A program made the translations under genes and the position numbers. From contig JACATO010001572.1 of NCBI GenBank assembly GCA_018389105.1, positions 1-64,000 on the forward strand: a stretch of DNA of 64,000 nt, given 5' to 3'. Below the pieces are notes generated by a model. It worked only from the letters and a program-made list of their open reading frames with translations, made no database searches and had not been told where the DNA came from. How positions within the stretch are numbered: the stretch's first letter is position 1; every line of letters starts with the position of its first letter. Source of the stretch: Nautilus pompilius. Its lineage: Eukaryota; Mollusca; Cephalopoda; Nautilida; Nautilidae. This document shows, in pieces, positions 1 to 42,829 of the stretch.

Positions 1-1319
1 TTTATTATACTTTCAATAAAGGAAAATTAGTTCCAAACATTAAATTAATTGATTCATGTAACCAAATGCAAAAAAAAGGAAATTTTGAAATTGTAAGATT
101 CTTTAATCACTTTTATTGGTTTTGGTAAAGTTAGTTTTTAATTAAAAACTGACTTCTTTTTGTTTTCAATAATTTTAACCAGGGGAGTGCAATTTTTCCC
201 TTTACATATAAGATCATATTGGTCAATACACGAGCTGGCATACAAGTTATTGTAAATAATTATATTTGGAATATACAGTTTGAATACAAGGCTCTTCATA
301 ATACATGATTGGCATGAGACAAACACTGGAGGTAAACATCAGGAAAACAGTAAAACTATGCTAAAGTCTGGAACCTGGTTTGAAATTTGAGTTATTAGCA
401 TGTATAGTCTTAATATTTTGAAAAAGCATGTTAATTTTTAAAAAGTCTGCTATGTTTGTATTTACCATGGTTAAGGAGGAAGTGCACAATTTAATGCTGT
501 TAGCTAGCTGCTGCCATTTGTGGCATGATAGCAGCATAGGGAGAAAAGACCGAAGATGCTTTATATGGGTAGATCTACACTTTAGAACAATTGTTCATCA
601 ATTTGTCATTTGGTCAAGAGAATCCAAGAAGCTGTAAATAGACAGGGTTTTGTAAACATATTTAAAGATGTAATGAGTGTGTGTTTGCAGGAAGCATTTG
701 ATATTGAAATCTTTATTCATAGTGAGAAGAAAATCAATGTGGGGATGAAAACTATCAGCAAAGATACTAGACAGGTAAATGTGTGTGGATACTGAATGGG
801 CGCTACTACTCCTGAAGTGGAGAAATACAGTCAGAGGACAAAATGTTCAAAAGACAAACCCTATGAACGATCACATTATTGTCAAGTTATATATCTACAC
901 CTATTTATTATTTTAAATGGTTCTACAGATTTTTGATACCAGTTAGTTTGCTACTAGGTCATATCACTACCATCTTTTACTTCAGGATCTATTGATTTAT
1001 ATTTTCTGCTTGCTTTATTCAAGAACGTTAATGGTTGGTTGTGTGGAGCAACCATCTTCACTAAGCCAAAACGACCTCTTCAACAGAGCTTGCTTTTAGA
1101 ACATTAAGCATCGTTGTAGTAGTGATGTTTTGAACGGTTCTCAGGGTATTCTAAAACGGTTTTATTATTATTCAAAGCTTTAAAATCAAAATAAAACAAA
1201 TTTTAGAAATTCTTTCATGCTCCAGTCAATTCTACAAAGAAAATTAATTTCATCTGTAGGCTCCTATCTCCTGTAACAAATTTCTGACACACTGTTCAAC
1301 GTCTCTGTATTTCTTTCCT

Positions 1320-2100
1320 TGCATCAGTGTTTCCAGGAGTACAGTGTACCATTTGGTTCTTGTCAGGATTTCCATTTTCAAAGCAGTTATCAAAGTCCAA
1401 ATGTTGGGATGGTTATTTGTTCCTGTACTTCAAAGGGCATTGTCAAACTGCTCAATGTTGTTGTTTGTGGATGACATGCTATTTTCAGTGCATTCATGAA
1501 CATTCCAGGAAGTAATAGGAAAATGGGATCATCATGTCTTCTTCTCTGATGTAACAACCTCAAAGTATGAAACTATTTTTTTGGGAGGAGGAGAATCATC
1601 TTCCGCAGTCACCTCAAAACCATCCACTACATTGTTTCTCTGCACTTGTTGCATTCCTTTCTGTTAGCATCTAACTTTTAGATTAAATTGATAATCTTGA
1701 CGGTATCTTGCCTCATGTTTATTTTGACCACTTTTTTGTAAACATTCTTCAAAGATGGAACAAGTGATGTTACTGATGCACCAGGAAAATGGGAAGAGAA
1801 AGAAACTGACACCACAGATTTTTCAAAATCTATCAAGGAATCTGGTCTTATGTTAGTTCTGAGCTCTTTGAGTTTGGCAAATAATTGATCATAAGTAGCT
1901 TGTCTTTTGTCCGGGGCTAAAGCAAAACATGGATCACTCAAGATGTCAGTTTGAGTGCAGGGTGTACAATTGATATTAAATGCATGAGCCGCATTTAAAC
2001 ATTCCATCCCCTGCCCAACTCCTGATCTGTTCAATATCAACCATTCCAACACGTGTTGCAAACATCAAAGTTTGTGTGGGGTCATCTTCACCACTATCAA
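1320..2100 (-). pseudogene. Decayed MULE (Mutator-like) transposase, copy 1
   Basis: Minus-strand translation of 1678-2061 gives an open stretch of 127 codons containing PCFALAPDKRQATYDQLF, then a LIDFEKS motif and FPGASV. This is the MULE transposase core pattern: 'pdK...Y..l...L......P....DFE.A......FP'. Downstream in the same direction, and out of frame, come VDGFEV, SYFEVV, FPITSWNV, a TNNNIEQF motif and NNHPNIWTLI. These match the C-terminal MULE region (FPi..WN, TNN.vEgfH, HPniW) in the right order. Stops and frameshifts separate the pieces, so the gene is dead. A fainter N-terminal part may reach about 2340. Family assignment is from motif recognition; no search was run. Confidence 0.82.
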
Positions 2101-5100
2101 CCTACAGGAATTGTCACCATAGACAAAATTGCAATATTGTTCCTTAGGAACAGCAGGAGCATTTTTCTTTCCTGCCACCAATTCCGAAATATTGCAACTC
2201 ATTGAAGAGATAGATAGCAATTCTGCCAAAACACAATCATTCAAGTTAATGGAAGCCTTGGAAATGTCAGATCGAGGTGCATTTTATCAGAGAGCTCATA
2301 CTATTTCCATGTTGGCAATTTCTTTCTTAGGGTTCTTGCAGTAGTAGCATGATTGTGCTCACTTACTATCTTAACGTCTTGTTTTCTTCATCTGTCCAGG
2401 TATGGACTGTTGCTTTACAAGGATGCTTTTCGTGCAGCCACTATTGCTTTGATCTTTCAGCATTTCTTTTATGCTCCTCCTAGATGTAGTTGAAATCATC
2501 ATCAAAGATTTTCCCATTATGTAATGAAATGATTTCTCACATTTAGCAACTGAGTTTTAAAATGTTTTCTATCACAATGTTCACTTGTTGCTTTATCGTG
2601 ATTTTATTAGTTTGAAAATAAATTCCACTCAAATATGCATATAAGACAGATGCATGGTAATAAAATGTGGTTGCTCAGTAAGTAAGTTAGTTTTTTTCAG
2701 AAATCGTGTTTCATATGTTATAATCCTAATATATTCTTTGTAATTTGTTTATAGACAATAATGGAAATAGTGCAGTGTTTTAAGTTGTATGTATATGGTT
2801 AACTTAATGGAAGGAGGTACTCAGTAGTTTTGTTGAAGTATTCATGATACAAGCAAAGCTTCTCATGGGAAGAATTAAATTCAGATTGATTGCTGGATGT
2901 AAATGAAAGTTTAGTTCACATTACAACAAGAATCCGTCATCTGACAATTCATAAATGGTTGAATTAAATAAAGTAGCTAAATGAATCAGCCTCAGTTGAT
3001 AATACAACACACTCTGGTAGAACAGAAACCACTCGCCATACAATTGCAGTTGTCAAAGAAAACTTTTTCAGGAAACCCAAAGAAATCAGATTGGAATATT
3101 TTAGAAAAACTCAGCTTTCACCTTTCACCCCTCCATAAAATATGGAAAGGGAGATTGAATATGATGCGTTATATCCAATTATCTGGAGGGATGGTTTGAA
3201 ATATTGGCAAATTTGACACAGCATTTGGTTGTTTCACTCAAATATTTTCCATGTATAGCTTTGTAATAGAATGTGTTCAATCTTACATAGTTGAACAGCT
3301 ACTACATATTAACTAACTTAGATACTTTATAAACACCCAAGATATACACAAACTCAGCTGCTAACTTGGAATTTCAGAATTTTGTTTAGAAAGTTTTCTT
3401 AGTAGTTGTAGCTGAAGGATTAGAGTAGAATGTGAAAGAATGATGGTTATATCTGTCTGAATCTGTTTTGCTTTGTCACTACCATGGTCCATGTGCACAT
3501 CTGGTTCTGAAATTAAAGATGTTCAGTAAAAGTGGTTGGTAGTGGATTCTTTCCCTTCAGAGACCCCTCAGCAAGAATGTGGTCTGTCTGTATTTCTTAG
3601 TTCAGAACACTGAAATGTACTCAGTAAATATTTTAAAACTCCCTCTTTGAATTTCAGTCAGTTTAAAATCAAAAGAGAAAGAGAGAGAGTATAGGTAATG
3701 GAAGTAACAATGATTTGGAAATTAAATTACTGTGTGATTGAATAAACCTAATCACTGGAATTTTAGCATCAATGGAAGAACAAACAGTCAACAAAGGCGA
3801 ATGATTTTCAATTCACTTTTTAATTAAGGTTCAAAAGTGATCATTGTCTTGAAGTTGACTTAGAAAAAGTTTATTTTGGCAGTTTGCAAAGTTGAGGAAT
3901 AAGGTGGAGGATATAACAAGAGATCATCCAACCATTTAGATGAAAACAAAGTGGTTTTGACAATTTTAATATAACATCAATTGGATTGTTCTCTATCTGG
4001 CGGGGCCACCCTTCAATCTATAGACTCTGAAAATATGTTAATCCAACCCAATGTGTTACAAAAAACGGTTTACAAATGAAACATCTGTCCATAGATTTTG
4101 TTTTGGTGCTACATGGCAACTGCTGCCTGGGGAAGCTAATAAAACAGCTCTGATTGGGGCACGGTTTGGACCATTGGCCATTTGCACAAACTTTGTCTTT
4201 AGTGTGTTGCAGCTCCCTGATTTTGACCACATTTACTGACTGCTTTTTAAAATGCTGTTTCATTGTCATTGTTGGTTCCTTTCACTTCTTTCCATGGCTA
4301 CATCTCTACTTCTGTACAAAAAGAGAAAGTTGGATTCTGAATGTCATGTTTATGATCAAAGTTGACTGAGCAATATTTGCACTTTATCCAAGAAGCAAGC
4401 CAATATGTGCTTTGTCTTGTTAAAGTCCATCGCAGGAAACCAAAGCTTCAACTTGTAACAGCATGATGAGAAGATGGAGGCAGAGAAGCTCGCCATGATT
4501 TGAAGGTAGTTAATCTTTGAATTAATATAAAGTTGTATTTTTTCATTCGTAGTTGTTTGTAAATCAGGGAGGAAAAACATTTTATTGTTTCTTGTCATCT
4601 TTCGGTTTGTTTCCTTTGACCAAGATCTTATGGTTAATCTGTTTTTGAAATTCCCTTTTATTTTATTGATCTTGGGTTTCACAAAAACCTGTGATGTCTG
4701 ACTGTTTAGGAGCAGCTCAATGAAGATGTCATAGTCTACTTTCCATTAATGTCTCAATGTTGGAATCTACTTAGCTGTTGTTTGTTAGTTTTATCTCAAG
4801 ATTTTGTTTGTCTCTTTCAGCTCCAAGACAATTTCAAATATGTATTTGTTTGTTCATCCTATTTCTTGACTGGAAACATTGACACATCACGTGACCTCAG
4901 GTCTTCTCTCCAATATTTTTTTTTGGTCCAGGTAAATAACATTTGTACAACAGTAAATTTTGTGTGATTTATACCTGGACAAGTGAAATTTGAATAATTG
5001 TGGGATTTATTGAGAAATGTATGTAACACAAACTTTGATAAACATTATTTAGAAACAGCACAGTATGATACCAATGGTAAACCTAGTATTCAGGACAAGA

Positions 5101-5174
5101 ATGTGATTAGTATGAATCAGCCCTGTTCATTTTGTAAATATTGTTAATATTTTCTTTTTTATTTTCTTATTTAG
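2101..5174. other. Intron upstream of Ig5 (copy 1), no gene seen
   Basis: AT-rich and CpG-poor. Apart from the weak MULE N-terminal tail (to about 2340) I see no coding pattern, RNA gene or structured repeat. Short open stretches lack codon structure. The same sequence is found at 39520-42603. Confidence 0.6.
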
Positions 5175-5480
5175 TCAGACCAGTGGTAAAAATGATATTA
5201 TCTACAACAAAAATCCAGGGCCGTCGTCAAAGCAACATAACTTGTTACATCCAATCTGATGGAAACCCACCAGAGTACATATTTAGACCATGGGAGCACT
5301 GGTGGGGTCAAGTCCATCTTCGGACTCTCTCTGGTACCAGCCACCCAAAATTCACAGAAATTGTTTCTTTCTCATCAACGCACCAAGACAGTGGCACCTA
5401 CAAATGTACAGTAATAAATGGGAATGCACAAACTGGACGCATTTTTTTTCAGTCATCTGAACTAAAAGTGAAGATACCAT
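5175..5480 (+). CDS. Ig-domain exon 5 of a multi-Ig receptor (intact copy)
   Basis: The exon is flanked by a pyrimidine-rich acceptor (TTTCTTATTTAG) and a GTACGT donor. It is 306 nt long and both introns are phase 1. The translation is an Ig fold: first cysteine in NITCYIQSD, aromatic residues in PWEHWWGQVH where the core tryptophan is expected, and the canonical second cysteine motif in HQDSGTYKCTV, followed by a G-strand (SELKVKIP). The domain would be extracellular and may bind a ligand or another receptor; no ligand can be inferred. It is the first exon of the 3' half-gene in this window and its 5' part is duplicated at 42604. It is open throughout, unlike its copy. Confidence 0.85.
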
Positions 5481-6416
5481 GTACGTTGTGAATTTTCATT
5501 TTCTTTTCTCTCTCACACGGCATCTGACAGCTTAGTTTTATTGTTAACATGACTAATCTGCTGAGTTCCGCATGCTTAACGTAAGAATAATCTGTAGTAT
5601 TTCCTGCACAATTTTACCACAGCTAAATGTTTATAATGCTGCTTAGTAATGATACAAGTCACTTTTGTGTCTAAGAATGCAGACAACTTTTATTCAGTTT
5701 AATCTGTTGATTATAACCAGGGAAATTAAATAATTACATTTTTTAATGTATGGTCTGGGAACAAATACCTGCCTTATAAGTAAATATAAAGAAATTGGGC
5801 AGAAGTCACATGATTTGTAATGTTTTTATATCCCGTATATTTAATGAAATGGAAATATTAGTTTTGTTTTATTTTTGCTTGCTCTCTCTGCAGATTATTG
5901 TTGTAGTAAAAATTATTTATTTGTACTTGATGTCAATTTATTCTCTATTTCTATTTGTTTTTTGTGCAATAATCCACAATCCACCATTTCACATCAGAAG
6001 TTATTCATATATTCAAATTTTTGTTTATTAGTATTCAAATTTCATATTGAATTGTTTGGTAACAAGTGAAATTTTATACTTCTAAAATCCATTTTTCGGT
6101 TACTTGCCAAACAAACTCTTCATCTGTGACCTTTAATCCTAGAATGAAAGTATCCAGTAAATGGGAATGTTGACAACTTCAGATCCCCAAATTGTTTGAA
6201 ATTCAGGAATGCTGTTAACTGATATTCTGATACAAATATTTATACATTTTATGCCAATAGATTTTCACTACATCTACTTCAATTTTCTTTGCTGTTTCTA
6301 CTCTGAAATCTACATCTTAATGAGATAAGAATTATTTGTGATGTGGATGCTGTTTGAGGATAATTTTCTAATACTGATTTGCTCAAAATCTCTCCCATAT
6401 TTACTGTTTATTTCAG
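5481..6416. other. Intron between Ig5 and Ig6
   Basis: AT-rich intronic sequence between the Ig5 donor and the Ig6 acceptor. No repeat or gene recognised. Confidence 0.6.
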
Positions 6417-6742
6417 CAAAACCAGTCATTGCTTTGCAAAGATTTACTATCAAAGCTGCTGAAGGCGCAGATGCTTTGCTGAGTTTAAAGTTCTATTCGT
6501 ACCCTAATTATTCAAGTATTACCTGGCTGAAGGTGAACAGAAAATCAACCCTGAGTACCATTTTGTCAAGGAGAATGTTGTGACCTTCATATCCTACAAA
6601 AATATCCTGAAAAATCTGGTTTTAAGGCTCTGGCTATATTAAAAACATCTGAGTCTTGATGATTTTGGAAAATATAGAGTCAACATTAGTAATGCTGAAG
6701 GCTGGGTAATACAGCCAATTGTCATACTATTGGGAAGGAGAG
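6417..6742 (+). CDS. Ig-domain exon 6 of the receptor, frame broken
   Basis: The acceptor is TTTATTTCAG and the donor AG|GTAATT. The translation opens with SKPVIALQRFTIKAAEGADALL and reaches an Ig core tryptophan in SSITWLK. The frame then shifts to read GEQKINPEYHFVKENVVTF, shifts again through GFKALAILKTSE, and ends in a third frame with SLDDFGKYRVNISNAEGW, which carries the DxGxY motif before the G-strand. Where Ig cysteines are expected there is Leu (LLSLKF) and Val (KYRVNI), so this may be a disulphide-less Ig domain. Total length (326 nt) is not compatible with phase 1 at both ends, so there is a net indel. Either a pseudo-exon or uncorrected long-read indels would explain it. Confidence 0.7.
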
Positions 6743-8534
6743 GTAATTTAAATACAATAAGAGGTTTGTTAATAAGGTCAGTGAGTTCTTTAACATTTGA
6801 GCACCTTTATAATTATTTTATATTTGTGAGCTCAACTAACTTGGACTTTGATGCTAAAAGGTGTCAGATCATAGAATAGGTTGGTTTGGATTTCCAATCA
6901 GTGTTTGTGCTTCATGGCGATTCTGCGAACCCCACACACATCACAGGTGTAAATGTCACTCGCTGTCTATCAATTGTATGATCAGTTTACAAAATGATGT
7001 TCAAGCTGTAATTAAATGTTTGTCACCGTTCAGGGTTACAGCACAATTTCTCTTTTCAAACATTCTGTTGTGGAGCTTCAAAATTGCTGCTGCAAATGAA
7101 ACGACAGACAGACAAGAATTTTTCTAAAATGATACGGTTATCTAGAATGGATACAGCAGCATTCCAGCATGAAAATTTGTCTTGGCCATCCCAGGAATGG
7201 TATCACTGTGGCAGATTCATTGCAGTGCTGCTTTATTACCATCTGCTGAAACTGATGTATGTATACAGAAGCACAGAGTGAATATGCTTATAGTAAACTT
7301 GGCTGGAGGTGTACCAAATGAATGACCAGGTGATTTTGATGCCACAGCTGAAGGATTGTAGCCTCTGATATAAACCTATGGAAATTTACAAAGCAGCATT
7401 TTATCGGAGGTGGGGGGGGACGAGGAGTTCACTGTAATTTTACGGGTAAAAGGAATGCGTCTGGCATAGATGAATGCCTGTTTAATTAGCTTAGTTACAT
7501 TTAGCCCTTTGATGAATTACTTAAAATACTAGTATTGGAGCAGTCTACACGGATGTACCAACGATAGACCAATTTGCTGCTGAATGTTTGGATAACAGAC
7601 ATTTTGTACTTTGCTAGACAGGTGAACAGCAAACCCTGGGGGTGGGCTGAGGCAGTGATTTGCTAGATTCCACATCGCTATGGAAATAATAAAATGAATT
7701 AAATATATTTTAATGATACTGATCTAACTGAAATGTTTTGAGTCTTTGACACTATCAATTTAATTTGTAGTAGTGTAATAGCATTAGTTTACCTTTTCAG
7801 TGATGAAATGTTTTAAACTTCTTTTGTACACACAATTGTTCCATATTCAATAACGTCCATGGATTCCATTACTTCTGTGTATATACTTAGGTTTGATCAC
7901 CCATTTTGATGTTGGACATATACAGAGATTAGAAAGAAGGTCATTGTGGGTAAGAAATAGCTGTAAAACACTATACATGGAGTTTGTGGTTTACAGTAGG
8001 AGTCTAAATCCTTTCAAGAGTCACTTGTTGGGAGTTACAGCTTTCCCCTTTTGATTATTTCTTGTAATCAAGCACCTGTATTACTCGTCTTCACACAAAG
8101 GTCTACAGAATCGATCAAATGATATGGTACGCTATATTTTGTCCAAAAGTTGACTTGAATGTTACGAATGTAAAACAAAAAAATATTCCAAGCTTGCAGC
8201 GTTGTTAGTTATGTTTGTTTAGTGCTTCAAAGTTCACCTGTATTTTTTGTACAGTCACATTACAACAAGGGAAAGCTGTTTCTGACAATATTGTACTTAG
8301 AAAACCTGGCCTGATATCAGTATTGTACTGTTCTCTGATTCTATAAAATAATTACAGTTATGTATTATTCTGTACTATATGTATAAATGAGAAGTGTGAT
8401 ACCTATAGCTTAGTGCAGAAGAATCAATGGATTAATCTTAACTTGTGACATACAGCTTGAAGAAGATTTAGTTTTCTAAAAGTTCAGTGGCCAACACAGT
8501 TCAATAAACTGATGTTTAATTATTTATCTTGCAG
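6743..8534. other. Intron between Ig6 and TM exon
   Basis: 1.8 kb of AT-rich sequence with a short poly-G run near 7412. No gene or transposon recognised. Confidence 0.55.
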
Positions 8535-8684
8535 AACCTGAAGCAATTGTAGGAGTAGCTGGGGACTTGCCTATTGGAATACCTATTGCAGCCTTTTTTG
8601 TTGGACTTGTTCTGACAGTAGGTGTTGCTGTAATTACCAGATATATTTACAGAAGGATGCTTTTAAAGCAAATAGCAGAACATG
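8535..8684 (+). CDS. Transmembrane exon of the receptor
   Basis: The acceptor is TTATCTTGCAG and the donor CATG|GTGAGA; length is 150 nt with phase 1 at both ends. The translation starts EPEAIVGVAGDLPIG, continues with a strongly hydrophobic stretch of about 22 residues (IPIAAFFVGLVLTVGVAVIT), and then a basic stop-transfer run (RYIYRRMLLK). This is a single-pass type I anchor placed just after the last Ig domain. The basic residues put the following exons in the cytoplasm. There is no acidic or basic residue buried in the membrane segment, so no sign of pairing with a charged adaptor chain. Confidence 0.85.
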
Positions 8685-10538: not shown

Positions 10539-10574
10539 AAGAGGAGGTTGAGGATTAGAGATTGTAAAGTGATG
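10539..10574 (+). CDS. Short cytoplasmic-tail exon with early stop (EEEVED)
   Basis: A strong acceptor (TTTTTTCTTATAG) and a consensus donor (GATG|GTAAGT) bracket 36 nt. In phase 1 after the TM exon it reads EEEVED and then a stop codon, giving a receptor with a very short acidic tail (AEHEEEVED). The exon length would keep the gene's phase-1 pattern, but the included form ends here. Skipping it joins the TM exon directly to the microexon at 12007 in frame. It could be a regulated cassette; alternatively the stop is a sequencing error. Confidence 0.5.
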
Positions 10575-12006: not shown

Positions 12007-12024
12007 TGGTGCAAACAGGTCAAG
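12007..12024 (+). CDS. 18-nt cytoplasmic microexon
   Basis: An acceptor (TTTTTAATTTTCAG) and a GTAAGA donor bracket only 18 nt, in phase 1 on both sides. With the G of the preceding exon it encodes VVQTGQ (with the first base of the last exon's codon). It lies in line between the TM exon and the terminal exon at 17784 and joins both without breaking frame. Such short sites can arise by chance; the agreement of phase on both sides is the supporting argument. Confidence 0.45.
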
Positions 12025-12150
12025 GTAAGATGATCGAATTATTTCATGTCAGGTATTTAACCTCCTGACCCATTTTGATTTCACCGATTTAGATAGATAC
12101 TCAACATGGTTATCCAGATATTTCTGATCTCAACACTGTGCATACTTATT

Positions 12151-13650
12151 CAGGGCCATCTTAAGAATATTGAGGACCCCTGCCCCACCCCTGAACACAT
12201 TAAAATTAAGTTTTAAACTGGGAAATTTGTGGCATTTCATTGCAGAAAATTGCTTTATAATTGATTGAAAGTCTGTTTTTGAGTATGTCGCTTTCAATGC
12301 ACATGAGGAAAAGCAAATTCAACCACTGCTGTTCCATTGTGCTGCGAAGATGATTCTTTGTAAGTTTCAACCTGGAAAATGAATGCTCCCCGGTACAGTT
12401 GGTCACCATCATGCACACACATATTCTGAGTGTGATTTCAACATTTGGAAACACAGTTTTCAGCTTATCTGAAATGAGTTTGCTGTGTACGTGTCTGGAA
12501 GAGTCCTGCATTCTTCATCGTTGACAATGTAGTGCTTGAATTGCTTGCATTCATTGAGTAATTCATTGTAATCAAGATCTTCATGATAAGCATTAGCCAA
12601 TTTTTCACACCTTTGACTAAGCTCATTACAGTCAATTGTTTTTAATTGACTGAAGGAGGAAAATAGATTTCCAATACTTTCGTAGGCTTCTGCACGTTTA
12701 GTCAGGTGAGAGTCCAGAACAGGAAAGTATTTTCCACCTTGAATTTTTCAATTTCGTGGAGAAGTATCTGTTCTGCTGACCCATCATATCTGGTAAGACA
12801 CACATTTGTCTCCATCACTATATTTCAAATCTGCACACCTGCTTTTAGCCTTTGCTTCATACTCACTGAATTTGTCTCTCATTTCCTGAAGATAAGCTTT
12901 CAGAGACTTCAGAGATCAATGGCAACGAGTATGTCCACATTTTTTGACTGCAAAATTTTACTTGTTTTTGTTCACTCTTTCCAGAATGTCATTCCAAAGA
13001 ATTGTCAAAAAGATGTTCTCTAGCTTCTCCATTTTCTTGCTCAATCTTTCTGACACACGTCTTGTGTTCCACTCCTGATCAGCATCAACTGCGAGGGCAT
13101 CCATGCATTTTGAATTTCCTCAAAACCATGAAGAGCAGTGACGGCATCGAAATGTGCTGACCGTCTCATGTCAGAGAGACACTTGACTACAATATGATTC
13201 TTTCCCAAGGATGTCGTCAAAACATTCTAGCGATGTGTGGAAGCCAAGAAAAAAGGAATACAAACACCGAACAAAGTTAAAGCAGATGATCTGTGGAGCA
13301 CACTCTGCCGCTTTTACTCCCACCAAGTTCAGACTGTCCAGCACAAGGGATATATATAACAAATTCATTTAGTTCAAGGATCCATGTTTGCAATCCAGTG
13401 CAGCATCCTGCCATATTTCATTTTTTATATGAGTTGTTGGGTTATTGTCTGGCAACCAGTGATACAGGCATATTGGATGTAAGGTAATTTTTGTATACTC
13501 TCTTCCTGGTAAAAAGTGCATCTTATATGCCGGCAAACATGGTAAACCTTAATTTTTATTTTTCAAATTGAATTTCGAGTCCTCTAATATCACAGGGACC
13601 CCAGGCAACTGCCCGGTGTGCCCATGCGATAAGTTCCAAAGACATGTCGA
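12151..13650 (-). mobile_element. Decayed ZMYM1-like hAT element, C-terminal part
   Basis: The minus strand reads LDSLNLVGVKAAECAPQI (13171-13368), then CLSDMRRSAHFDAVTALHGFEEIQ, then KRAEAYESIGNLFSSFSQLK, and finally a hAT dimerisation segment with EHSFSRLKLTKNHLRSTM (12206-12511). The order matches the C-terminal half of hAT transposases annotated as zinc finger MYM-type protein 1-like. Frameshifts and stops interrupt it and the N-terminal half is missing. Terminal-inverted-repeat-like ends are visible: CAGGGCCATCTTAAGAATAT at 12151 and a degenerate partner around 13600-13645 (GGGACCCCAGGCAACTGCCC). This suggests an internally deleted copy. It lies in an intron of the receptor, antisense to it. 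Confidence 0.85.
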
Positions 13651-19500: not shown

Positions 19501-19504
19501 TTCA

Positions 19505-22639: not shown

Positions 22640-24420
22640 CAAGTCTACAATTCATCTAAGAATGCTTTGCAGGCTTTTCTGATAGCAAATGTTTCAATTT
22701 TATCAAAACTTTAGATAGCTTGCAAGTTTTTCTTCAATGGCCAATGTTCCCAAATCTGGGAGGCACTATTCACAATACATAATTCGGCCTGAGGCAATGT
22801 ATAATACAGACCAGAGTGCCAAATGGCATCTGTACTTCAGCTACAGTCACTGAAAGAGTGAAAATGATATGCAGAACTACACAACAATTTGGAAATAAGC
22901 ATGAAATTTTAAGTTCATGAATGTTATTTAGGAGGTCCAACAGTTCCAAAGTAATGACTTCAATGTTAGCCAAATGAATTGATTTCAAACATTTCACTTC
23001 TTCACACAAATCTGTTGTGACATACATCAGCACGGTAGTCTTAATGAATGGTTTGCATTTTTCTTCAAACTGATTTTCATTTTCAGTATTTTTCTGTATT
23101 TCCACATAAACCCAAATTTCTCATCTCAAATCTGCTCAGCTTCATAACGGTTTTTAGGTTGGAAATTAGATTGTCAAGAACGACATAGAAAAACGTTTGT
23201 CTTGAATAGGTCATCTGGATTTCTAATTGTTGTTACATCATGAAACATTTTCCTCTCTTAGTGCATATTTCTGGAAATTTTTGTTCAGTATTCATTGCAT
23301 TGGCAACAATTTTAGTTTCAGAAAGTACAATATTCCAGTTTTATAAAATAAAGCTTAATTCAACTAATAAGCTTTCAATGTTCTTGACTTCAACATCAAT
23401 GGTAGTATTTCAAGCTTGTAGCAGTTTTCTTCTGTGGTCAATTGTTCCAAAATCTTTAACCAGATTAATGCCATGATAATGCATGTGATATATTCCAAAA
23501 CACCCCATAGTAGACAACATGTCTCTACAGACAATTTTAGCTTATTCGAACGTTCCACAGCAGTGACAAGCTTAGCTAGATGAGCTGCAATTGATCAAAA
23601 CGAATCCACCCGTGCACTCCAACAAAGAGCATCGGGCATTGAATGTAGAGAAATTCCAACACACCCCTTCAGAATTTTCCATCGCTGCGCACTGCAGCTA
23701 AACTGATTATACAGTTGCTGTACTATCTCTTAAGATGTTGCTGCTTCAGGGCAACAATCAGCAGTGTGCACTCCACACAAGTTGAGATTGTGATGGGAAA
23801 AACTTTGCTAAAGGATTCCACTGAAGAAAAAGTGCTTGTACACCATTAAACGCCCCACTCGTGTCACTTTCATTGTCGTAACCTTGGCCACGACATTCAT
23901 TAAGAGGAATTAAGTGTTTCTCAAGTGTCAACAAACCCATCAAGGTTGCAATTTCAACTCCTGATTTTGGCAGCAGTCAGTGAATTCCAAAATTCGTTCT
24001 TGTATTTCATATTTGCATTCTTCTTCATCCAGGTTAACATAACAAACAATAAATGTTGTTTGTTCAACATGACTTGAATCTAAAGTTGCATCAATAATAA
24101 TAGAATACTTCTCTTTTTCTCTCTGTTCTAAGTTAGAAGAGCAAGAAATAAATTCATTTTGTGTTACTAGACAGATAATGCATTTGTAAGCATTAAATAG
24201 CTTTCTGAGATCCTCTGACCTTGCCACTGTTTTATTCAAGAAACAGGTCATGGTGACTCAAAATCTCTAGGGCTCGAAGAACATTTTCATTACTTGGCTG
24301 TCTGATTTTCTGAGATTTGCTTCTTAATGCCAAGCCTATGTCACATCAAGCAAAGAACTTGTCTCCATAAATAGCCTTCACTTTGAATCTCTTTCTCCGG
24401 CCTGGGAAAGATAGAAATTC
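22640..24420 (-). mobile_element. Decayed ZMYM1-like hAT transposase, second copy
   Basis: In minus-strand order: KYSIIIDATLDSSHVEQTTF (DUF4371-type start with the first catalytic-like Asp), LIPLNECRGQGYDNESDTSG (the CRGQGYDN.A.MSG block), HNLNLCGVHTADCCPEAATS, LCWSARVDSF (the 'tRWSAR.dA' block), LFPNCCVVLHIIFTLSVTVAE and GTLAIEEKLASYLKF near 22700. All are in the order expected for ZMYM1-like hAT proteins. Stops and frameshifts inactivate it. It is diverged from the 12-kb copy and retains the N-terminal half that copy lacks. No clear terminal inverted repeats were found. Confidence 0.87.
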
Positions 24421-24529
24421 AACTAGGATGCGATGGTACTACGGTCTGCCATTTCAAGTAACACTTTTTGTGAAGATTGCTACACTGCTGTTCTGGGATT
24501 CTGTTATATTCTGTCATGAGCACCCTGAT

Positions 24530-24991
24530 CTAGCAGAAAATTACGAACAAATGGATGAGGGCTGAGGATAAAAACAAAATAATGGCCCTGTCGGCTTTCA
24601 CTCCGATCACGAGGTGCAGAGGTTCGTTGTTTGAAAGTTTGGACTGAAGCAGCGTCTGCTGGAGACCGTCCTGGGTGCCAAGGTTTGCCCTCAGTGGTGT
24701 GTCACTGCTCTTCTGCGCTCCACATTTGTACTCCATAACCGCTAACACAATGAACAACCGACCCAGTGCAAACAAAAGTTGTCTGGAAAATACAGGACGG
24801 AACTGTCTCAGCAGGTGGCGAGCAGCCCGCGTAACCATAGATACGGCAGACACAGGGCAAACAGTCAGAACGACATGAGGCTGTAGTGGGGTAGCAAAGA
24901 GCCACCTGGGTCCATCAAGGCCATCCCACAGAGTTATTTCTCTACAATGTAAATTATAACAAGAAAATAAACAATATAATCGGTTCTCCAT
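24530..24991 (-). CDS. Possible divergent exon or ORF beside the CpG island
   Basis: A 153-codon open frame on the minus strand. A TTATAATTTACATTGTAG acceptor-like site (about 24940-24957, minus strand) precedes a stretch reading EITLWDGLDGPRWLFATPLQ, then ARHLLRQFRPVFSRQLLFAL and KLSNNEPLHLVIGVKADRAI. Base composition is less AT-rich than its surroundings and CpGs are present. The position next to the CpG island would suit a head-to-head gene. I recognise no family and the opposite strand is also partly open, so this could be transposon-derived or non-coding. Confidence 0.25.
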   Translation of the reverse strand: MENRLYCLFSCYNLHCREITLWDGLDGPRWLFATPLQPHVVLTVCPVSAVSMVTRAARHLLRQFRPVFSRQLLFALGRLFIVLAVMEYKCGAQKSSDTPLRANLGTQDGLQQTLLQSKLSNNEPLHLVIGVKADRAIILFLSSALIHLFVIFC

Positions 24992-25720
24992 ACACTCACC
25001 GCTGAGTGACGGACGAGAAAGTGCGTTATTCGCGTCGGGGGGTCAAAGGTCATCATCGCTGTGTCCGTGTGTCGTGGAAACGAGCTGCAGGCGACTCGCC
25101 AGAACGGTGTAGGCCTCAACCTTTCTCCCTTTTCCTAGACTTTCCTTCTTCACCCTTCTCCCACGCCTGCTTCCACCTGTATTTCTTCCCCTCGCCGACG
25201 GACAGAAGGCGGGGCCCCCGCGTTGCCGTTTATTCACTCGGGGAGAACGTTAGCGTTCGGTGGAGAAAATACCGTTGTGACTGGCGGGCGGGTCTCTTCC
25301 ATCGACAGGTAAGGAAGCAGATCCCTCTGCCCCCTCCTCCTCCTCCTCCTCCTCCCCTACAATCTCTGGGCCAGAGTTTCCTTTAACCCTGACTTCTCCG
25401 TGTCAGGTGGCCCGGCAGAGAGAGGGAGGACACCGTCCGACTTTCCCTCCCCTGTACCATGTCGGGGTCTCCACTGCTGCCTCCAGACCCTCCTCGGTCG
25501 GGTAGAGAGAGATGCTCGCAGGGACCTGTTCTGAACTGGGGCTGTCGCAGAGGAAGCTGGGGGCTCATTGCAGACAAACGACGCCTTTCAGTTGGGTGCC
25601 GGCAGGGTTCTCTCCCTTGATTTTACGGTGGTGGACCTTCTCTTTTCTTGGCAGGTTTTCCTCACCTGGAAGAGGCAGCAAAAGATGGATAATAAGTGCC
25701 AGGCTGAATGGTCGGTGGAT
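24990..25720 (+). promoter_or_regulatory. CpG-island promoter of the receptor 5' half-gene
   Basis: A stretch with many CpGs and high GC in an otherwise CpG-depleted neighbourhood, including a CCTCCT tract at about 25326-25360. It lies 1.3-2 kb upstream of the signal-peptide exon and contains a consensus donor (GACAG|GTAAGG, 25308/25309). A non-coding first exon ending at 25308 is therefore plausible. The open frames inside it are low-complexity and not convincing as protein. Confidence 0.6.
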
Positions 25721-26542
25721 CTGTCGACATTAACACAGGAAGAGAGTTGAGTAACTTTACCCCTGACATCCCACATCCTAATGCTCAGTGTACAATTCCA
25801 GAACCTGGCGTACAAATACAGTTTCGATGCCAGTTCTATTCATCTTTTCTCTTCAACTGCATAGAATTTGTTGTATATATTCGCCAAGTTATTTGCTAAA
25901 CTACTGCATTCCTACAGCCATTTGTCCCTTTGTTAGGAAACCCTGAACTCGGATATTCGCTTCGTGTCTGTTGTAGCCAAGCGGTCTTACGAGCTGGTAC
26001 CGTTTTTCTTTACAGGCCGGATATGTTTGGAAATGCATGTGTTTTCATTGTTTGCACTATTATTTTTAGAGGTAAGTATTGGATGATGATGGATGATGAT
26101 GATGATGATGTTGTCTTGAAGAATTTCCAATGTAGTCAGTAATGTCGCTAACAGAATATTTTCCTACATTTACGCGGGTGTACCTGAGTTTTTCAATTAC
26201 AGTCTAGAAATGAGTAACAGCAATAGAGCCATCAGGGTCCTCCCATCACACTGCAGGCCCGCTGTATATGACTGAATGCACTCTCTCTCTCTCTCTCTGT
26301 CTATTGCGGAATCCCTTTATTTGACTTCTGCTTTTGTTATTCTGTTTTTGAATACTTCACTAAACTTTACTACTAACAACTGTAGGCAATTTATTCACAG
26401 CAATACTTTTCAAAGGCCAGTCAGAAATAATTATCACAAATGGAGAAGCGGATAATTCCTAAAATGGGAATTGCATTGTTGTACTTATTTTAAATGTAAT
26501 TATTACAAAGAGAAATTATACCTTTTGTACAACATTCTGCAG

Positions 26543-29610: not shown

Positions 29611-29920
29611 ATGCTCTTTCAATGTATTCGCAACCTGAACCAGCAGTTGTGGGGAGCCAGATTTGGGTTACATGTTATAAATCCTTTGGTGGTGAAATAA
29701 ACTGGTGGTTGGATAATTATAAAGTTGCAGTGTCCTACCAAACCTACACTCAAATTTTTGAGAAACAACCTTATTGGGGCAGATGTAAAGTATCAGATAT
29801 GTTCAACCTTGATGTATCAGCAAGATTGATTTTAAAACCAATCAGGCGATATGATAATGGTGTAAAGATTTATTGTGTTTGGTCTTGGAACCACTAAATA
29901 TATAACAATGACAGTTTACG
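29611..29920 (+). CDS. Ig-domain exon 1 of the receptor, 3' end frameshifted
   Basis: The acceptor is AAAATTTTTAG and the donor TTACG|GTGAGT. It opens in phase 1 (D-ALSMYSQPEPAVVGSQIWV). Ig landmarks are the first cysteine in WVTCYKS, the core tryptophans in EINWWLDNY, the strand RLILKPI and the second cysteine in YDNGVKIYCVW. The frame hits a stop at SWNH* just after the second cysteine, while the adjacent frame reads TTKYITMTVY to the donor in phase 1. The exon is one base too long for phase-1 symmetry (310 nt). A single-base insertion or consensus error near 29890 would explain this. Confidence 0.8.
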
Positions 29921-30350
29921 GTGAGTTCCTTCTACATATTAACTGCGCAATTTGATTTAATTTCAAATATAAATATGTCCTAACTATTAATTTTGTGTTC
30001 TTAATCTATGTATCTTTGTGAGCAAATTAATTCGGCAAAAATTCAGATTTATCAAATACTCCAGCAAGATTTGTGTGTTAGGCGATTATATTTTATTTGT
30101 TCATTTTGGAAAAAATGATAAATTAGCTAACTTTCCATTTCTCATTAGCTATCAATTTGAATGTCTTAATGAGAGATCCAGCTGTTATTTTTATTTATCC
30201 ATTATCTTCCCAATTATTTGAAGATGTTAAGTTTCTCATTCATTAGAATAATTTAGCAAGAACAAAAACATTGTAATGTACATCGATGTTTTGCTACCTT
30301 GGCCAAATTAGCATTTTAACCTTATACCTGTCTCCTTTTATCTTTTACAG
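29921..30350. other. Intron between Ig1 and Ig2
   Basis: Short AT-rich intron, no features. Confidence 0.65.
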
Positions 30351-30672
30351 CTCCTGTCAAGGATTTATATATTGGCAACTATTATGGAGAAATTCCTTTT
30401 ATCGCAGGTTATTATAGATCTTGCCATTGTACAGCAACATATGTTAAACCTAATGCAGTCATTAAGTGGTATTGGATCAAAGATAGGGAAGTGTACCTTA
30501 CTCGAGGAGTAAATAAACAATCTCCGACAGGATATGGCTTTGTAAATGTTACAAGCACAATGAGAGTGAGACTTAATAATGTGGATCATAGGAGAGAAGT
30601 ATATTGCAGAGGCTACAATGATTATAATAATGGAAAGTAATAACTTCCACACATCTTCGACTAATGAAAAGA
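30351..30672 (+). CDS. Ig-domain exon 2 of the receptor, 3' end frameshifted
   Basis: The acceptor is TATCTTTTACAG and the donor AAAAGA|GTAAGT. Phase 1 start gives APVKDLYIGNYYGEIPF. Ig landmarks are Cys in YRSCHCTATY, Trp in AVIKWYWIKD, strands TSTMRVRLNNV and Cys in REVYCRGYND. Two stops follow at NNGK**; an adjacent frame reads KVITSTHLRLMK, which looks like the missing G-strand. At 322 nt the exon is again one base too long for phase-1 symmetry, the same defect as Ig1. Repeated single-base excess points to consensus indel error as much as to pseudogenisation. Confidence 0.78.
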
Positions 30673-33105: not shown

Positions 33106-33453
33106 TAAAAGTGAATAAAGTTTATATTTCAAATAATGTCACTGGTAAATCAGCTTTGATTAAAGTGAGAGAGAATGTGGCAACAGATATTTACTGTTCA
33201 GCAAATAAAACTGATCCTAAAACTATCATTACTTTCTGGGAAGTAAGACAAAATGGACAACAAAAAATGCTACGCCATATATATCAAAAGATCTTAAAGC
33301 ACAGCGGACTTTACACCACTGTATCTATGACACGCATTACTCCGAATATTCGAGATAATGGAGTCAAAATATACTGCCATGGTAGAAATATTTTTGTTCC
33401 TGATTTGGATTTTCCAGGTGTCAATTCTAGAAATTTGGTGGTGGAAATTCTAT
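33106..33453 (+). CDS. Ig-domain exon 3 of the receptor, intact
   Basis: The acceptor is TTTGTTTTTCAG and the donor TCTAT|GTAAGT. At 348 nt the exon is phase 1 on both sides and open throughout. It starts VKVNKVYISNNVTGKSALIK. The first Ig cysteine is in TDIYCSANKT, the tryptophan in TFWEVRQNG and the second cysteine in RDNGVKIYCHGRN. The NGVKIYC motif is shared with Ig1, so the two domains are probably paralogous within the gene. Potential N-glycosylation sites (NNVT, NKT) suit an extracellular domain. The donor region is tandemly duplicated just downstream (33440-33584). Confidence 0.85.
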
Positions 33454-33584
33454 GTAAGTATTTTTGACTTTCTGTAAATTTTTGTAAATAATAGTTTTTT
33501 TTTATATTTGAAGGTGGAAATTCTATGTAAGTATTTTTGACTTTCTGTAAATTTTTGTAAATAATAGTTTTTTTTATATTTGAA
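33440..33584. repeat. 73-bp tandem duplication containing the Ig3 splice donor
   Basis: Two units start at 33440 and 33513 with identical GGTGGAAATTCTATGTAAGT, then the same intronic sequence up to a T-run. The second unit is one T shorter. The duplicated unit includes the last 14 bases of the Ig3 exon and its donor, so a second, complete copy of the donor lies 73 bases downstream. Confidence 0.95.
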
Positions 33585-35057: not shown

Positions 35058-35336
35058 ATGCTCCATATGATCCCCCAGTGATTTCCGGAATAAATAGTAA
35101 CAAATTTGTTTATGAGAATGCTAAAGTTAAGGTGTATTGTTCATGGAGAGGCGGGAATCCTGACAATGCTCGTGTGACTTTGAAGTGTCCAGGAAACTCT
35201 CCTACCACAGACACGCTAACAGTCAGTAAATACATGACAGTATCAAAACTGATGCATAGAAAACATTGCATTTGCACTGGATTGCACATACTTAAAACGG
35301 TGATTGGTACATCGACACAAGTCTTCAAAGTTTCTT
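35058..35336 (+). CDS. Ig-domain exon 4 of the receptor, intact
   Basis: The acceptor is ACTTTTGTTGCAG and the donor GTTTCTT|GTAAGT. It is 279 nt, phase 1 at both ends, and open. With the last base of Ig3 it begins Y-APYDPPVISGINSNKFVYE, a typical inter-domain DPP linker. Cysteine and tryptophan lie in KVYCSWRGG, strand E-like residues in DTLTVSKYMTVSKL, and the F-strand cysteine in RKHCICTGLH. It is shorter than the other Ig exons, and has extra cysteines (TLKCPGN, CIC). The next exon in line is the truncated Ig5 copy 7.3 kb downstream, or the intact Ig5 at 5175 if the locus is read as a repeat. Confidence 0.83.
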
Positions 35337-37410: not shown

Positions 37411-38734
37411 TTTATTATACTTTCAATAAAGAAAATTAGTTCCAAAACATTAAATTAATTGAATTCATGTAACCAAATGCAAAAAAAGGAAATTTTGAAA
37501 TTGTAAGATTCTTTAATCACTTTTATTGGTTTTGGTAAAGTTAGTTTTTAATTAAAAACTGACTTCTTTTTGTTTTCAATAATTTTAACCAGGGGGGTGC
37601 ATTTTTTCCCTTTACATATAAGATCATATTGGTCAATACACGAGCTGGCATACAAGTTATTGTAAATAATTTTATTTGGAATATACAGTTTTGAATACAA
37701 GGCTCTTCATAATACATGGTTGGGATGAGACAAACACTGGAGGGTAAACATCAGGAAAAAAGTAAAACTATGCTAAAGTCTGGAACCTGGTTTGAAATTT
37801 GAGTTATTAGCATGTAGTCTTAATATTTTGAAAAAGCATGTTAATTTTTTTAAAGTCTGCTATGTTTGTATTTACCATGGTTAAGGAGGAAGTGCACAAT
37901 TTAATGCTGTTAGCTAGCTGCTGCCATTTGTGGCATGATAGCAGCATAGGGAGAAAAGACCGAAGATGCTTTATATGGGTAGATCTACACTTTAGAACAA
38001 TTGTTCATCAATTTGTCATTTGGTCAAGAGAATCCAAGAAGCTGTAAATAGACAGGGTTTTGTAAACATATTTAAAGATGTAATGAGTGTGTGTTTGCAG
38101 GAAGCATTTGATATTGAAATCTTTATTCATAGTGAGAAGAAAATCAATGTGGGGATGAAAACTATCAGCAAAGTTACTAGACAGGTAAATGTGTGTGGAT
38201 ACTGAATGGGCACTACTACTCCTGAAGTGGAGAAATACAGTCCAGGGGACAAAATGTTCAAAAGACAAACCCTATGAACGATCACATTATTGTCAAGTTA
38301 TATATCTACACCTATTTAATATTTTAAATGGTTCTACAGATTTTTGATACCAGTTAGTTTGCTACTAGGTCATATCACTACCATCTTTTACTTCAGGATC
38401 TATTGATTTATATTTTCTGCTTGCTTTATTCACAAGAACGTTAATGGTTGGTTGTGTGGAGCAACCATCTTCACTAAGCCAAAACGACCTCTTCAACAGA
38501 GCTTGCTTTTAGAACATTAAGCATCGTTGTAGTAGTGATGTGTTTTGAACGGTTCTCAGGGTATTCTAAAACGGTTTTTATTATTCAAAGCTTTAAAATC
38601 AAAATAAAAAACAAATTTTAGAAATTCTTTCATGCTCCAGTCAATTCTACAAAGAAAATTAATTTCATCTGTAGGCTCCTATCTCCTGTAACAAATTTCT
38701 GACACACTGTTCAACGTCTCTGTATTTCTTTCCT

Positions 38735-39520
38735 TGCATCAGTGTTTCCAGGAGTACAGTGTACCATTTGGTTCTTGTCAGGATTTCCATTTTCAAAGCA
38801 GTTATCAAAGTCCAAATGTTGGGATGGTTATTTGTTCCTGTACTTCAAAGGGCATTGTGAAACTGCTCAATGTTGTTGTTGTTTGTGGATGACATGCTAT
38901 TTTCAGTGCATTCATGAACATTCCAGGAAGTAATAGAGAAAATGGGATCATCATGTCTTCTCCTCTGATGTAACAAAATCGAAGTATGAAACTATTTTTT
39001 TGGGAGGAGGAGAGGATCATCTTCCGCAGAGTCACCTCAAAACCATCCACTACATTGTTTCTCTGCACTTGTTGCATTCCTTTCTGTTAGCATCTAACTT
39101 TTAGATTAAATTGATAATCTTGACGGTATCTTGGCCTCATGTTTATTTTGACCACTTTTTTGTAAACATTCTTCAAAGATGGAACAAGTGATGTTACTGA
39201 TGCACCAGGAAAATGGGAAGAGAAACTGACAACACAGATTTTTCAAAATCTATCAAGGAATCTGGTCTTATGTTAGTTCTGAGCTCTTTGAGTTTGGCAA
39301 ATAATTGATCATAAGTAGCTTGTCTTTTGTCCGGGGCTAAAGCAAAACATGGATCACTCAGGATGTCAGTTTGAATGCAGGGTGTACAATTGATACTAAA
39401 TGCATGAGCCGCATTTAAACATTCCATCACCTGCCCAACTCCTGATCTGTTCAATATCGACCATTCCAACATGTTTTGCAAACATCAAAGTTTGTGTGGG
39501 GTCATCTTCACCACTATCAA
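38735..39520 (-). pseudogene. Decayed MULE transposase, copy 2
   Basis: This is the duplicate of the MULE remnant at 1320-2100, within the 5.4-kb repeat. The core DFEKS segment is still readable (39194-39481), but a four-base loss relative to copy 1 shifts the frame soon after it. The VDGFEV and HPNIW pieces are preserved downstream on the minus strand. Because both copies carry the same older stops, the element was dead before the duplication (or before the duplicate assembly). Confidence 0.8.
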
Positions 39521-42500
39521 CCTACAGGAATTGTCACCATAGACAAAATTGCAATATTGTTCCTTAGGAACAGCAGGAGCATTTTTCTTTCCTGCCACCA
39601 ATTCGAATATTGCAACTCATTGAAGAGATAGATAGCAATTCTGCCAAAACACAATCATTCAAGTTAATGGAAGCCTTGGAAATGTCAGATCGAGGTGCAT
39701 TTTATCAGAGAGCTCATACTATTTCCATGTTGGCAATTTCTTTCTTAGGGTTCTTGCAGTAGTAGCATGATTGTGCTCACTTACTATCTTAACGTCTTGT
39801 TTTCTTCATCTGTCCAGGTATGGACTGTTGCTTTACAAGGATGCTTTTCGTGCAGCCACTATTGCTTTGATCTTTCAGCATTTCTTTTATGCTCCTCCTA
39901 GATGTAGTTGAAATCATCATCAAAGATTTTCCCATTATGTAATGAAATGATTTCTCACATTTAGCAACTGAGTTTTAAAATGTTTTCTATCACAATGTTC
40001 ACTTGTTGCTTTATCGTGATTTTATTAGTTTGAAAATAAATTCCACTCAAATATGCATATAAGACAGATGCATGGTAATAAAATGTGGTTGCTCAGTAAG
40101 TAAGTTAGTTTTTTTCAGAAATCGTGTTTCATATGTTATAATCCTAATATATTCTTTGTAATTTGTTTAGAGACAATAATGGAAATAGTGCAGTGTTTTA
40201 AGTTGTATGTATATGGTTAACTTAATGGAAGGAGGTACTCAGTAGTTTTGTTGAAGTATTCATGATACAAGCAAAGCTTCTCATGGGAAGAATTAAATTC
40301 AGATTGATTGCTGGATGTAAATGAAAGTTTAGTTCACATTACAACAAGAATCCGTCATCTGACAAGTCCATAAATGGTTGAATTAAATAAAGTAGCTAAA
40401 TGAATCAGCCTCAGTTGATAATACAACACATTCTGGTAGAACAGAAACCACTCGCCATACAATTGCAGTTGTCAAAGAAACTTTTTCAGGAAACCCAAAG
40501 AAATCAGATTGGAATATTTTAGAAAAAACTCAGCTTTCACCTTTCACCCCTCCATAAAATATGGAAAGGGAGATTGAATATGATGCATTATATCCCAATT
40601 ATCTGGAGGGATGGTTTGAAATATTGGCAAATTTGGCACAGCATTGGTTGTTTCACTCAAATATTTTCCATGTATAGCTTTGTAATAGAATGTGTTCAAT
40701 CTTACATAGTTGAACAGCTACTACATATTAACTAACTTAGATACTTTATAAACACCCAAGATATACACAAACTCAGCTGCTAACTTGGAATTTCAGAATT
40801 TTGTTTAGAAAGTTTTCTTAGTAGTTGTAGCTGAAGGATTAGAGTAGAATGTGAAAGAATGATGGTTATATCTGTCTGAATCTGTTTTGCTTTGTCACTA
40901 CCATGGTCCATGTGCACATCTGGTTCTGAAATTAAAGATGTTCAGTAAAAGTGGTTGGTTGGTAGTGGATTCTTTCCCTTCAGAGACCCCTCAGCAAGAA
41001 TGTGGTCTGTCTGTATTTCTTAGTTCAGAACACTGAAATGTACTCAGTAAATATTTTAAAACTCCCTCTTTGAATTTCAGTCAGTTTAAAATCAAAAGAG
41101 AAAGAGAGAGAGTATAGGTAATGGATAGTAACAATGATTTGGAAATTAAATTACTGTGTGATTGAATAAACCTAATCACTGGAATTTTAGCATCAATGGA
41201 AGAACAAAACAGTCAACAAAGGCGAATGATTTCAATTCACTTTTTAATTAAGGTTCAAAAGTGATCATTGTCTGAAGTTGACTTGACTTAGAAAAAGTTT
41301 ATTTTGGCAGTTTGCAAAGTTGAGGAATAAGGTGGAGGATATAACAAGAGATCATCCAACCATTTAGATGAAAACAAAGTGGTTTTGACAATTTAATATA
41401 ACATCAATTGGATTGTTCTCTATCTGGCGTGGCCACCCTTCAATCTATAGACTCTGAAAATATGTTAATCCAAACCAATGTGTTACAAAAAAAACGGTTT
41501 ACAAATGAAACATCTGTCCATAGATTTTGTTTTGGTGCTACATGGCAACTGCTGCCGGGGGAAGCTAATATAAAACAGCTCTGATTGGGGCACGGTTTGG
41601 ACCATTGGCCATTTGCACAAACTTTGTCTTTTAGTGTGTTGTAGCTCCCTGATTTTGACCACATTTACTGACTGCTTTTTAAAATGCTGTTTCATTGTCA
41701 TTGTTGGTTCCTTTCACTTCTTTCCATGGCTACATCTCTACTTCTGTACAAAAAGAGAAAGTTGGATTCTGAATGTCATGTTTATGATCAAAGTTGACTG
41801 AGCAATATTTGCACTTTATCCAAGAAGCAAGCCAATATGTGCTTTGTCTTGTTAAAGTCCATCGCAGGAAACCAAAGCTTCAACTTGTAACAGCATGATG
41901 AGAAGATGGAGGCAGAGAGAAGCTCGCCATGATTTGAGGTAGTTAATCTTTGAATTAATATGAAGTTGTATTTTTTCTTTCATATTCGTTGTAAATCAGA
42001 GGAGGAAAAAACCTTTTATTGTTTCTTCTCATCTTTCAGTTTGTTTCCTTTGACCAAGATCTTATGGGTTAATCTGTTTTTGAAATTCCCTTTTATTTTA
42101 TTGATCTTGGGGTTCAAAAACCTGTGATGTCTGACTGTTTAGGAGCAGCTCAGTGAAGATGTCATCGTCTACTTTCCATAATGTCTCAATGTTGGATTCT
42201 ACTTAGCTGTTGTTTGTTAGTTTTGTCTCAAGATTGTGTTTGTCTGTTTAGCTCCAAGACAATTTCAATATGTATTTGTTTGTTCATCCTATTCTTGACT
42301 GGAAAACATTGACACATCACGTGACCTCAGGTCTTCTCTCCAATTTTTTTTTTTTGGTCCAGGTAAATGACATTGGTACAACAGTAAATTTTGTGTGATT
42401 TATACCTGGACAAGTGAAATTTGAATATTGTGGGATTTATTGAGAAATGAATGTAACACAAACTTTGATTGACATTTTAAAGAACAGCACAGTATGATAC

Positions 42501-42603
42501 CAATGGTTAAACCTAGTATTCAGGACAAGAATGTGATTAGTATGAATCAGCCCTGTTCATTTTGTAAATATTGTTAATATTTTCTTTTTATTTTCTTATT
42601 TAG
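39521..42603. other. Intron upstream of Ig5, copy 2
   Basis: Duplicate of 2101-5174. No independent features. Small indels relative to copy 1 accumulate after about 41.9 kb. Confidence 0.7.
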
Positions 42604-42829
42604 TCAGACCAGTGGTAACAAATGATATCAACTACACAAAAATCCAGGGCCGTCGTCAAAGCAGCACATAACTTGTTACATCCCAACTCTGATGGAAACC
42701 CACCAGAGTACATATTTAGACCATGGAGCACTGGTGGGGGTCAAGTCCAATCTTCGGACTCTCTCTGGTATCAGCCACCCAAAATTCACAGAAATTGTTT
42801 CTTTCTCTTCAACGCACAAGACAGTTGGC
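42604..42829 (+). pseudogene. Truncated, frameshifted copy of Ig exon 5
   Basis: This is the counterpart of 5175-5395. The acceptor is kept (TTTCTTATTTAG), but small insertions relative to the intact exon break the frame (a stop follows RRQSST), and the sequence ends before the DSGTYKC motif. Beyond it the DNA is unrelated. As assembled, the 5' half-gene starting at 27012 therefore has no transmembrane exon. Confidence 0.88.

Follow-up and report, generated by a model that had tools for sequence, protein, structure and literature searches.

The stretch analysed here comprises the first 64,000 nucleotides (the window) of contig C1498 (212,626 bases; GenBank JACATO010001572.1) of the Nautilus pompilius genome. 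It holds somewhat more than one unit of a young tandem segmental duplication in the animal genome, which was observed as about 20 assembled units of 37–44 kb each, placed in tandem on several contigs. These units probably form an array of diversified immunoglobulin (Ig)-superfamily recognition receptors. According to the mechanism that we propose, each 37–44 kb step would carry most of one Ig-superfamily transmembrane receptor gene; unequal crossing over and gene conversion between the copies would homogenise the membrane-proximal exons and the greater part of the unit, and the distal Ig exons would retain or gain diversity despite this exchange. The products would then be recognition receptors, of immune or allorecognition type, that are diversified in the germline and meet varied ligands with their outer domains. 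Recognition is the most likely function of these products, gene conversion is the presumed homogenising agent, and near-identical introns and stalk combined with divergent distal exons would be the expected outcome of exchange with retained diversity.

Searches of open-licence PMC papers revealed no description of such an array. The main text of the N. pompilius genome paper, which reports 730.58 Mb with a contig N50 of 1.1 Mb, obtained from PacBio data with several assemblers and Quickmerge (PMC8257504), does not contain the word "immunoglobulin". If the copies are expressed, they would provide a germline receptor repertoire with variation concentrated in stretches testable for binding. Gene counts and gene models are unreliable at the array, given a gene that crosses the unit border, short contigs, single-base frame breaks and one probable wrong join.

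Tandem organisation of the duplicated unit

Comparison of the window with itself (BLASTN) gave a sole dominant off-diagonal match, between positions 1–5400 and 37411–42833 in direct orientation. The alignment comprises 5455 columns with 97.27% identity (62 mismatches and 63 gap openings, the longest gap being of 5 bases), and its bit score of 9167 rules out a chance similarity. The direct repeat proposed in the initial annotation (1–5395 and 37411–42829) is real, and its ends were placed correctly to within 5 bases. The left end lies at position 1 because the contig starts there. From 42834 on, the sequence is unlike that from 5401 onward. The window can be divided as follows:

1–37410, + strand: one full array step, bounded by the start of the contig and by the following repeat, neither of which is a biological border
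37411–42833, + strand: start only of a second unit, which ends abruptly inside exon E
42834–64000, no strand: DNA unrelated to the array, with a ratio of observed to expected CpG (CpG o/e) near 1

The earlier estimate of about 1.15 units is correct insofar as the window contains one unit and approximately 14% of a second; the second copy does not run on, as it stops at 42833.

The assembly searched (727.6 Mb in 2558 contigs, labelled here as C plus a number) contained at least 15 places, the two of the window included, that cover at least 5,392 of the 5,395 bases of query 1–5395 at 95–100% identity. At least six further places match its first 2.3–4.5 kb, and at least 16 contigs are involved altogether; these counts are lower bounds, since 40 of the 97 candidates were scored. 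In separate censuses with exon A, exon C and the transmembrane exon (each with flanks; see below) every candidate was scored, the window copies included.

The distance between successive copies is variable. On C1311 it is 37.4 kb when measured from the 1–5395 region and 39.1 kb from the transmembrane exon. The former gave 43.4 kb on C726, the latter 37.3 and 41.1 kb on C1505 and 44.5 kb on C2293. The 37.4-kb period proposed initially is a real spacing, but only one of several, with units ranging from 37 to 44 kb. All seven other copies that were fetched with their flanks continue unbroken into unit sequence on both sides, leftward into that of 35.8–37.4 kb (with a slight length difference at 36.4–36.6 kb in five copies) and rightward into that of 5.4–6.9 kb, and none of the seven matches the sequence after 42833. 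Substitution differences among these seven copies and the two of the window amount to 0.67–1.75%, the two window copies differing by 1.68%.

The order of the unit is followed by 15 of 20 samples of 1 kb taken along C1505 and C726. The former carries about 2.5 units, with one deletion of approximately 5.5 kb over a unit border (between 36.2 kb and 4.3 kb of the next unit), and the latter about two units in reverse orientation. Three of the five unmatched samples match one another or a sample of C591; other units therefore hold a segment absent from that of the window, which fits their longer spacing. On the 1.35-Mb contig C591, matches to the unit were obtained with 5 of 20 samples and extend from 124226 (window 32930) as far as 155.2 kb (window 26.2 kb); a sample at 148 kb has no match in the window but matches other units, and the samples at 20–120 kb and 157.5–201 kb have no array match. 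The exon censuses detected exon C and the transmembrane exon once each on this contig, and exon A not at all. In addition, ten contigs were represented by 13 small samples, 9 of which match the unit. This evidence from independent contigs, together with the Ig-like and transmembrane exons within the unit, supports a tandem array of receptor-gene units, one of three explanations that the initial annotation had put forward.

The arrangement is not uniform. Units occur in both orientations on C1350, and C1311 (357 kb) carries young copies at its start and older copies in reverse orientation, whose three transmembrane exons (89% identity) are spaced by 44.1 and 41.3 kb. The region C1311:92649–178520, with three older reverse-orientation units beside the young ones, is possibly the home locus of the array.

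Exons of the putative receptor gene and their variation between copies

The putative gene lies on the + strand and spans the unit border: exons A–D are situated at 29.6–35.3 kb of one unit, and exons E and F, followed by the transmembrane exon, at 5.2–8.7 kb of the one after it. Each of the two genes represented in the window is consequently incomplete, one lacking its beginning and the other its end. The following exons, all bordered by AG/GT unless truncated, are listed in the order of the gene, and exons A–F and the transmembrane exon are predicted to form one putative transcript:

29611–29920, + strand: exon A, the most distal Ig-like exon found; no Pfam hit; strongly variable between copies
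30351–30672, + strand: exon B, Ig-like; Pfam C2-set_2 above cut-off; variable
33106–33453, + strand: exon C, Ig-like; weak C2-set_2; variable patch at 33227–33310, continuing to about 33365
35058–35336, + strand: exon D, weakly Ig-like; weak Pfam match
5175–5480, + strand: exon E, membrane-proximal, Ig-like; weak Ig_3; nearly invariant
6417–6741, + strand: exon F, weakly Ig-like; weak Pfam match; nearly invariant
8535–8684, + strand: transmembrane exon; hydrophobic stretch judged by eye; no Pfam hit
42604–42833, + strand: exon E of the second unit, truncated at 42833

The hydrophobic exon has the same orientation as the Ig-like exons, and the window lengths of this exon and of exons C, D and E are divisible by three. 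Frames are open in five of nine copies of exon A, four of six full-length copies of exon B (a short piece of C1311 omitted), five of eight copies of exon E (in C591 by way of compensating shifts) and five of eight copies of exon F; exon C is free of stop codons in 12 of 14 copies, some of which are partial and two of which shift near the end. Most disrupted copies are off by no more than two bases, in probable consequence of single-base assembly errors or possibly of decay.

A contrast between distal and proximal exons was directly observed. With exon A as the query (flanks included), 15 copies were found at 80–100% identity and four at 68–71%, the latter all on C1311; with exon C, 19 copies at 93–100%, two older ones at 76–78% and one contig-edge fragment lying beyond the exon; and with the transmembrane exon, 24 matches, namely 19 at 97–100%, three at 89%, one at 80% and one edge fragment. 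The range of 80–100% for exon A vs 97–100% for the transmembrane exon, which marks the former as a hypervariable distal Ig exon, concerns copies within one assembly and not individuals. The 80% match (C119:84726–85093) is the only one for this exon off the array contigs and is perhaps a distant paralogue.

For closer comparison, exon A was read in 9 of its 15 copies (the first eight pieces gave four good matches, a match over 40 bases in C1311 and three without any, and three were added later) and exon C in 14 of its 19 copies (the window, three earlier pieces and 10 of 12 matching pieces, with C506 and C1350 unmatched); of eight pieces fetched for exon B, four matched well, one matched over 98 bases and three did not match. 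In four units (C2137, C2293, C230 and one of C726) the distance between exons A and C is greater by about 3.5 kb. The pairwise identity of exon A among eight copies is 73.5–94.9%, and the pooled ratio of non-synonymous to synonymous differences per site (pN/pS) is 1.58–1.60 (eight copies, C726b being dropped for frame gaps; bootstrap for 1.58: 1.03–2.68), or 1.50 with C2137 and C1879 also removed (bootstrap 1.00–2.49). At the membrane-proximal side, 5 of 306 sites vary in exon E and 5 of 329 in exon F among eight copies; the few changes in exon E correspond to pS 0.0038 and pN 0.0069.

Variation within exon C is concentrated in one patch. Among sites seen in at least six copies, none of the first 121 bases is variable, compared with 31 of 84 at 33227–33310, 20 of 143 in the remainder and 9 of 115 in the preceding intron. 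In the seven-copy set, 17 of the 84 sites of the patch are variable vs 206 of 6,783 in 1–6880 (P = 1e-9). The last part of the exon has a pN/pS of 0.11 (11 copies, with C2480, C1505b and C1222 dropped; bootstrap 0.00–1.33). The haplotypes of the patch are shuffled: 12 distinct ones were observed in 13 copies (single-base errors may inflate this number), and all four combinations occur in 61 of 105 informative site pairs of exon C, a pattern that the exchange of short tracts between copies would produce. These variable exons, like the break at 42833, are additions to the initial annotation. We tentatively consider, at somewhat less than even chances, that this fast-changing array of about 20 genes, with shuffled distal Ig exons and patches on a constant membrane stalk, constitutes a germline repertoire of binding surfaces.

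A structure prediction for exon C alone (AlphaFold) was unusable, with a predicted local distance difference test (pLDDT) score of 43.7, and a PDB sequence search with this exon gave one match, to haemoglobin (E = 0.73). At the end of exon C (33433–33584) lies a 73-base tandem repeat that duplicates the donor region of this exon; other copies are about 78 bases longer there.

The break at position 42833 and alternative explanations

The first 3,967 bases past 42833 are present only in contig C1498, and a 10-kb query past this point gave simple-repeat matches. The last 600 bases before it contain private differences, 19 substitutions and 12 indels, compared with 0–4 and 0–3 in the eight other copies. 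Private differences of the second window copy climb toward the break, many of them being single bases in runs; some of the 19 substitutions stem from slight shifts in the alignment, and up to 10 private substitutions occur in single bins elsewhere in other copies. The accumulation has the appearance of a thinly supported join with insufficient sequence correction. An assembly misjoin is the more likely cause of the break, and we prefer it to a biological end of the array because the copy stops inside an exon, the following 4 kb were found in this contig alone and private differences pile up before the break.

At approximately 42.8 kb the CpG o/e rises from mostly 0.2–0.4 to about 1 and remains at 0.75–1.37 over the rest of the contig (excluding bins that contain withheld bases). 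A junction between two organisms was rejected as the explanation of this jump, since both CpG classes occur in 19 other contigs and within C591: values of 0.4 or less were found in 6 of 20 samples from these 19 contigs (two at array-related loci, the others arbitrary), and samples along C591 range from 0.17 to 1.0. The contrast perhaps reflects a patchwork of domains with and without methylation.

The rival to a misjoin, a true array edge with a decayed last copy, is quite possible, if the less probable of the two. The DNA past 42833, found only here, has no alternative neighbour, another array edge (C591:124226) is equally abrupt, and the alternation of CpG-poor and CpG-normal stretches within one contig makes the change in composition ordinary; an edge of this kind accords poorly with a break inside an exon and with the private substitutions and indels in the last 600 bases. 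The initial annotation had also considered two overlapping assembly pieces placed in the wrong order. This model fails for the repeat itself, because the window copies differ as much as copies on different contigs; for the break, an assembly fault is the likelier cause. Its third explanation, an extrachromosomal circle or a contig representing a circle read past its start, would likewise produce a contig that almost repeats its own start, and is nevertheless highly improbable: the second copy leads into 170 kb of unrelated DNA, one unit resides between non-array stretches of the 1.35-Mb contig C591 (if that contig is correct), and the copies vary in sequence, by the 0.67–1.75% given above, as well as in spacing and content. 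A weightier objection, to which we assign a substantial probability short of one half, is that the copy number largely reflects haplotype duplication, with perhaps 10 units per haplotype and both alleles assembled. Many array contigs are short (16–97 kb), several matches stop at contig ends, and the differences between copies could be allelic, as values of this size are plausible between alleles of an outbred animal. Two or three successive young units on single contigs (C1505, C726, C2293 and C1311) are, however, real paralogues, and haplotype duplication would reduce the number of units rather than remove the array.

Several observations weigh against an array of functional receptors. Pfam support is weak outside exon B, the only exon above the cut-off (exon A and the hydrophobic exon had no match, the remaining exons weak ones), and no first exons, signal peptide or tail were identified; a scan of 8.4–24 kb for tyrosine motifs (ITIM/ITAM-like) gave many chance-like matches and no tail exon. 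Frames are disrupted in a good share of the copies, including the window copies of exons A, B and F. The pN/pS is near 1 for exon B (1.04; five copies, with C1311 and C726b dropped; bootstrap 0.57–2.52) and for the exon C patch (1.06; the same 11 copies as above; bootstrap 0.56–2.74), and the densest 84-base background stretch has 14 variable sites vs 17 in the patch. The ratio of non-synonymous to synonymous substitution rates (dN/dS) was rejected as the entire case, since the 46 protein-altering changes among 60 in exon C match the neutral expectation of 78% without selection, and exon A alone exceeds 1. Nor is the variation confined to exons: the introns before exon A (C1505b) and before exon B (C1505a) are about 7% off the window, those after exon A (C1505b) and after exon B (C1505a) about 1–2%. 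It is conceivable, although unlikely, that the array is mostly decayed, functionless duplicate DNA, the variable exons being tracts copied from older diverged units. Disrupted frames in many copies, introns touched by variable tracts and the older units of C1311 (89% for the transmembrane exon, 76–78% for exon C and 68–71% for exon A) are consistent with such decay. An array of diversified receptors agrees better with frame breaks that vary by copy through single bases, each exon being open in several copies, with a pN/pS of exon A above 1 in the bootstrap, and with the few amino-acid changes at the end of exon C (0.11, interval 0.00–1.33).

Related receptor systems and other elements of the window

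Mammalian clusters of the KIR/MHC type have homogenised introns, divergent ligand-contact exons and copy numbers that change by unequal crossing over. They belong to other animals and involve other genes, and may be likened to the Nautilus array by analogy only. The sea urchin Sp185/333 proteins are not Ig receptors. Their genes, as described in sections of PMC5103432, are clustered and diversified, lie in near-identical segmental duplications and were misassembled in the genome sequence; the trouble of assembling near-identical duplicated clusters appears similar, which is a resemblance only, and the duplicated segments measure 4.2–4.6 kb (PMC5103432) vs 37–44 kb in the Nautilus array. The Alr genes of Hydractinia, in the passages of PMC3276163 that deal with them, encode Ig-like transmembrane receptors of a large family of similar genes with hypervariable domains, for which other loci have been proposed as donors. 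An Ig-like receptor family with a hypervariable distal domain would be the shared feature; we regard this as a resemblance and claim no membership. The variable domain of Alr is V-set-like and its tail has signalling motifs, whereas the Nautilus exons match C2-set_2/Ig_3. Among molluscs, the snail FREPs are presented in part of PMC7588048 as diversified immune proteins with one or two Ig-superfamily domains. FREPs differ in having a fibrinogen domain, none of which was detected when 30 of the window's open stretches were compared with Pfam (this was not a full search).

The window contains several other elements. Positions 24001–26000 have a GC content of 0.48 and a CpG o/e of 0.65 within an otherwise CpG-poor unit and are 98–99% conserved in the sampled copies; they could represent a promoter island or an inserted element. 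In the DNA to the right of the break, no Pfam domain was matched by 10 open stretches, and minisatellites with units containing GACGTCA/ATGACGTC-type words occur at 56313–56941, 58696–59105 and 63006–63642. Searches of the window with Rfam (gathering threshold) and ARAGORN matched no RNA genes. The segment 915–2539, with relatives of about 70% identity on at least eight other contigs, is probably a transposon, which may encode a MULE-like protein; Pfam matched nothing in two pieces of it. Finally, the C-terminal domain of a hAT transposase (Pfam, E 7e-8) is encoded on the − strand at 12209–12514.

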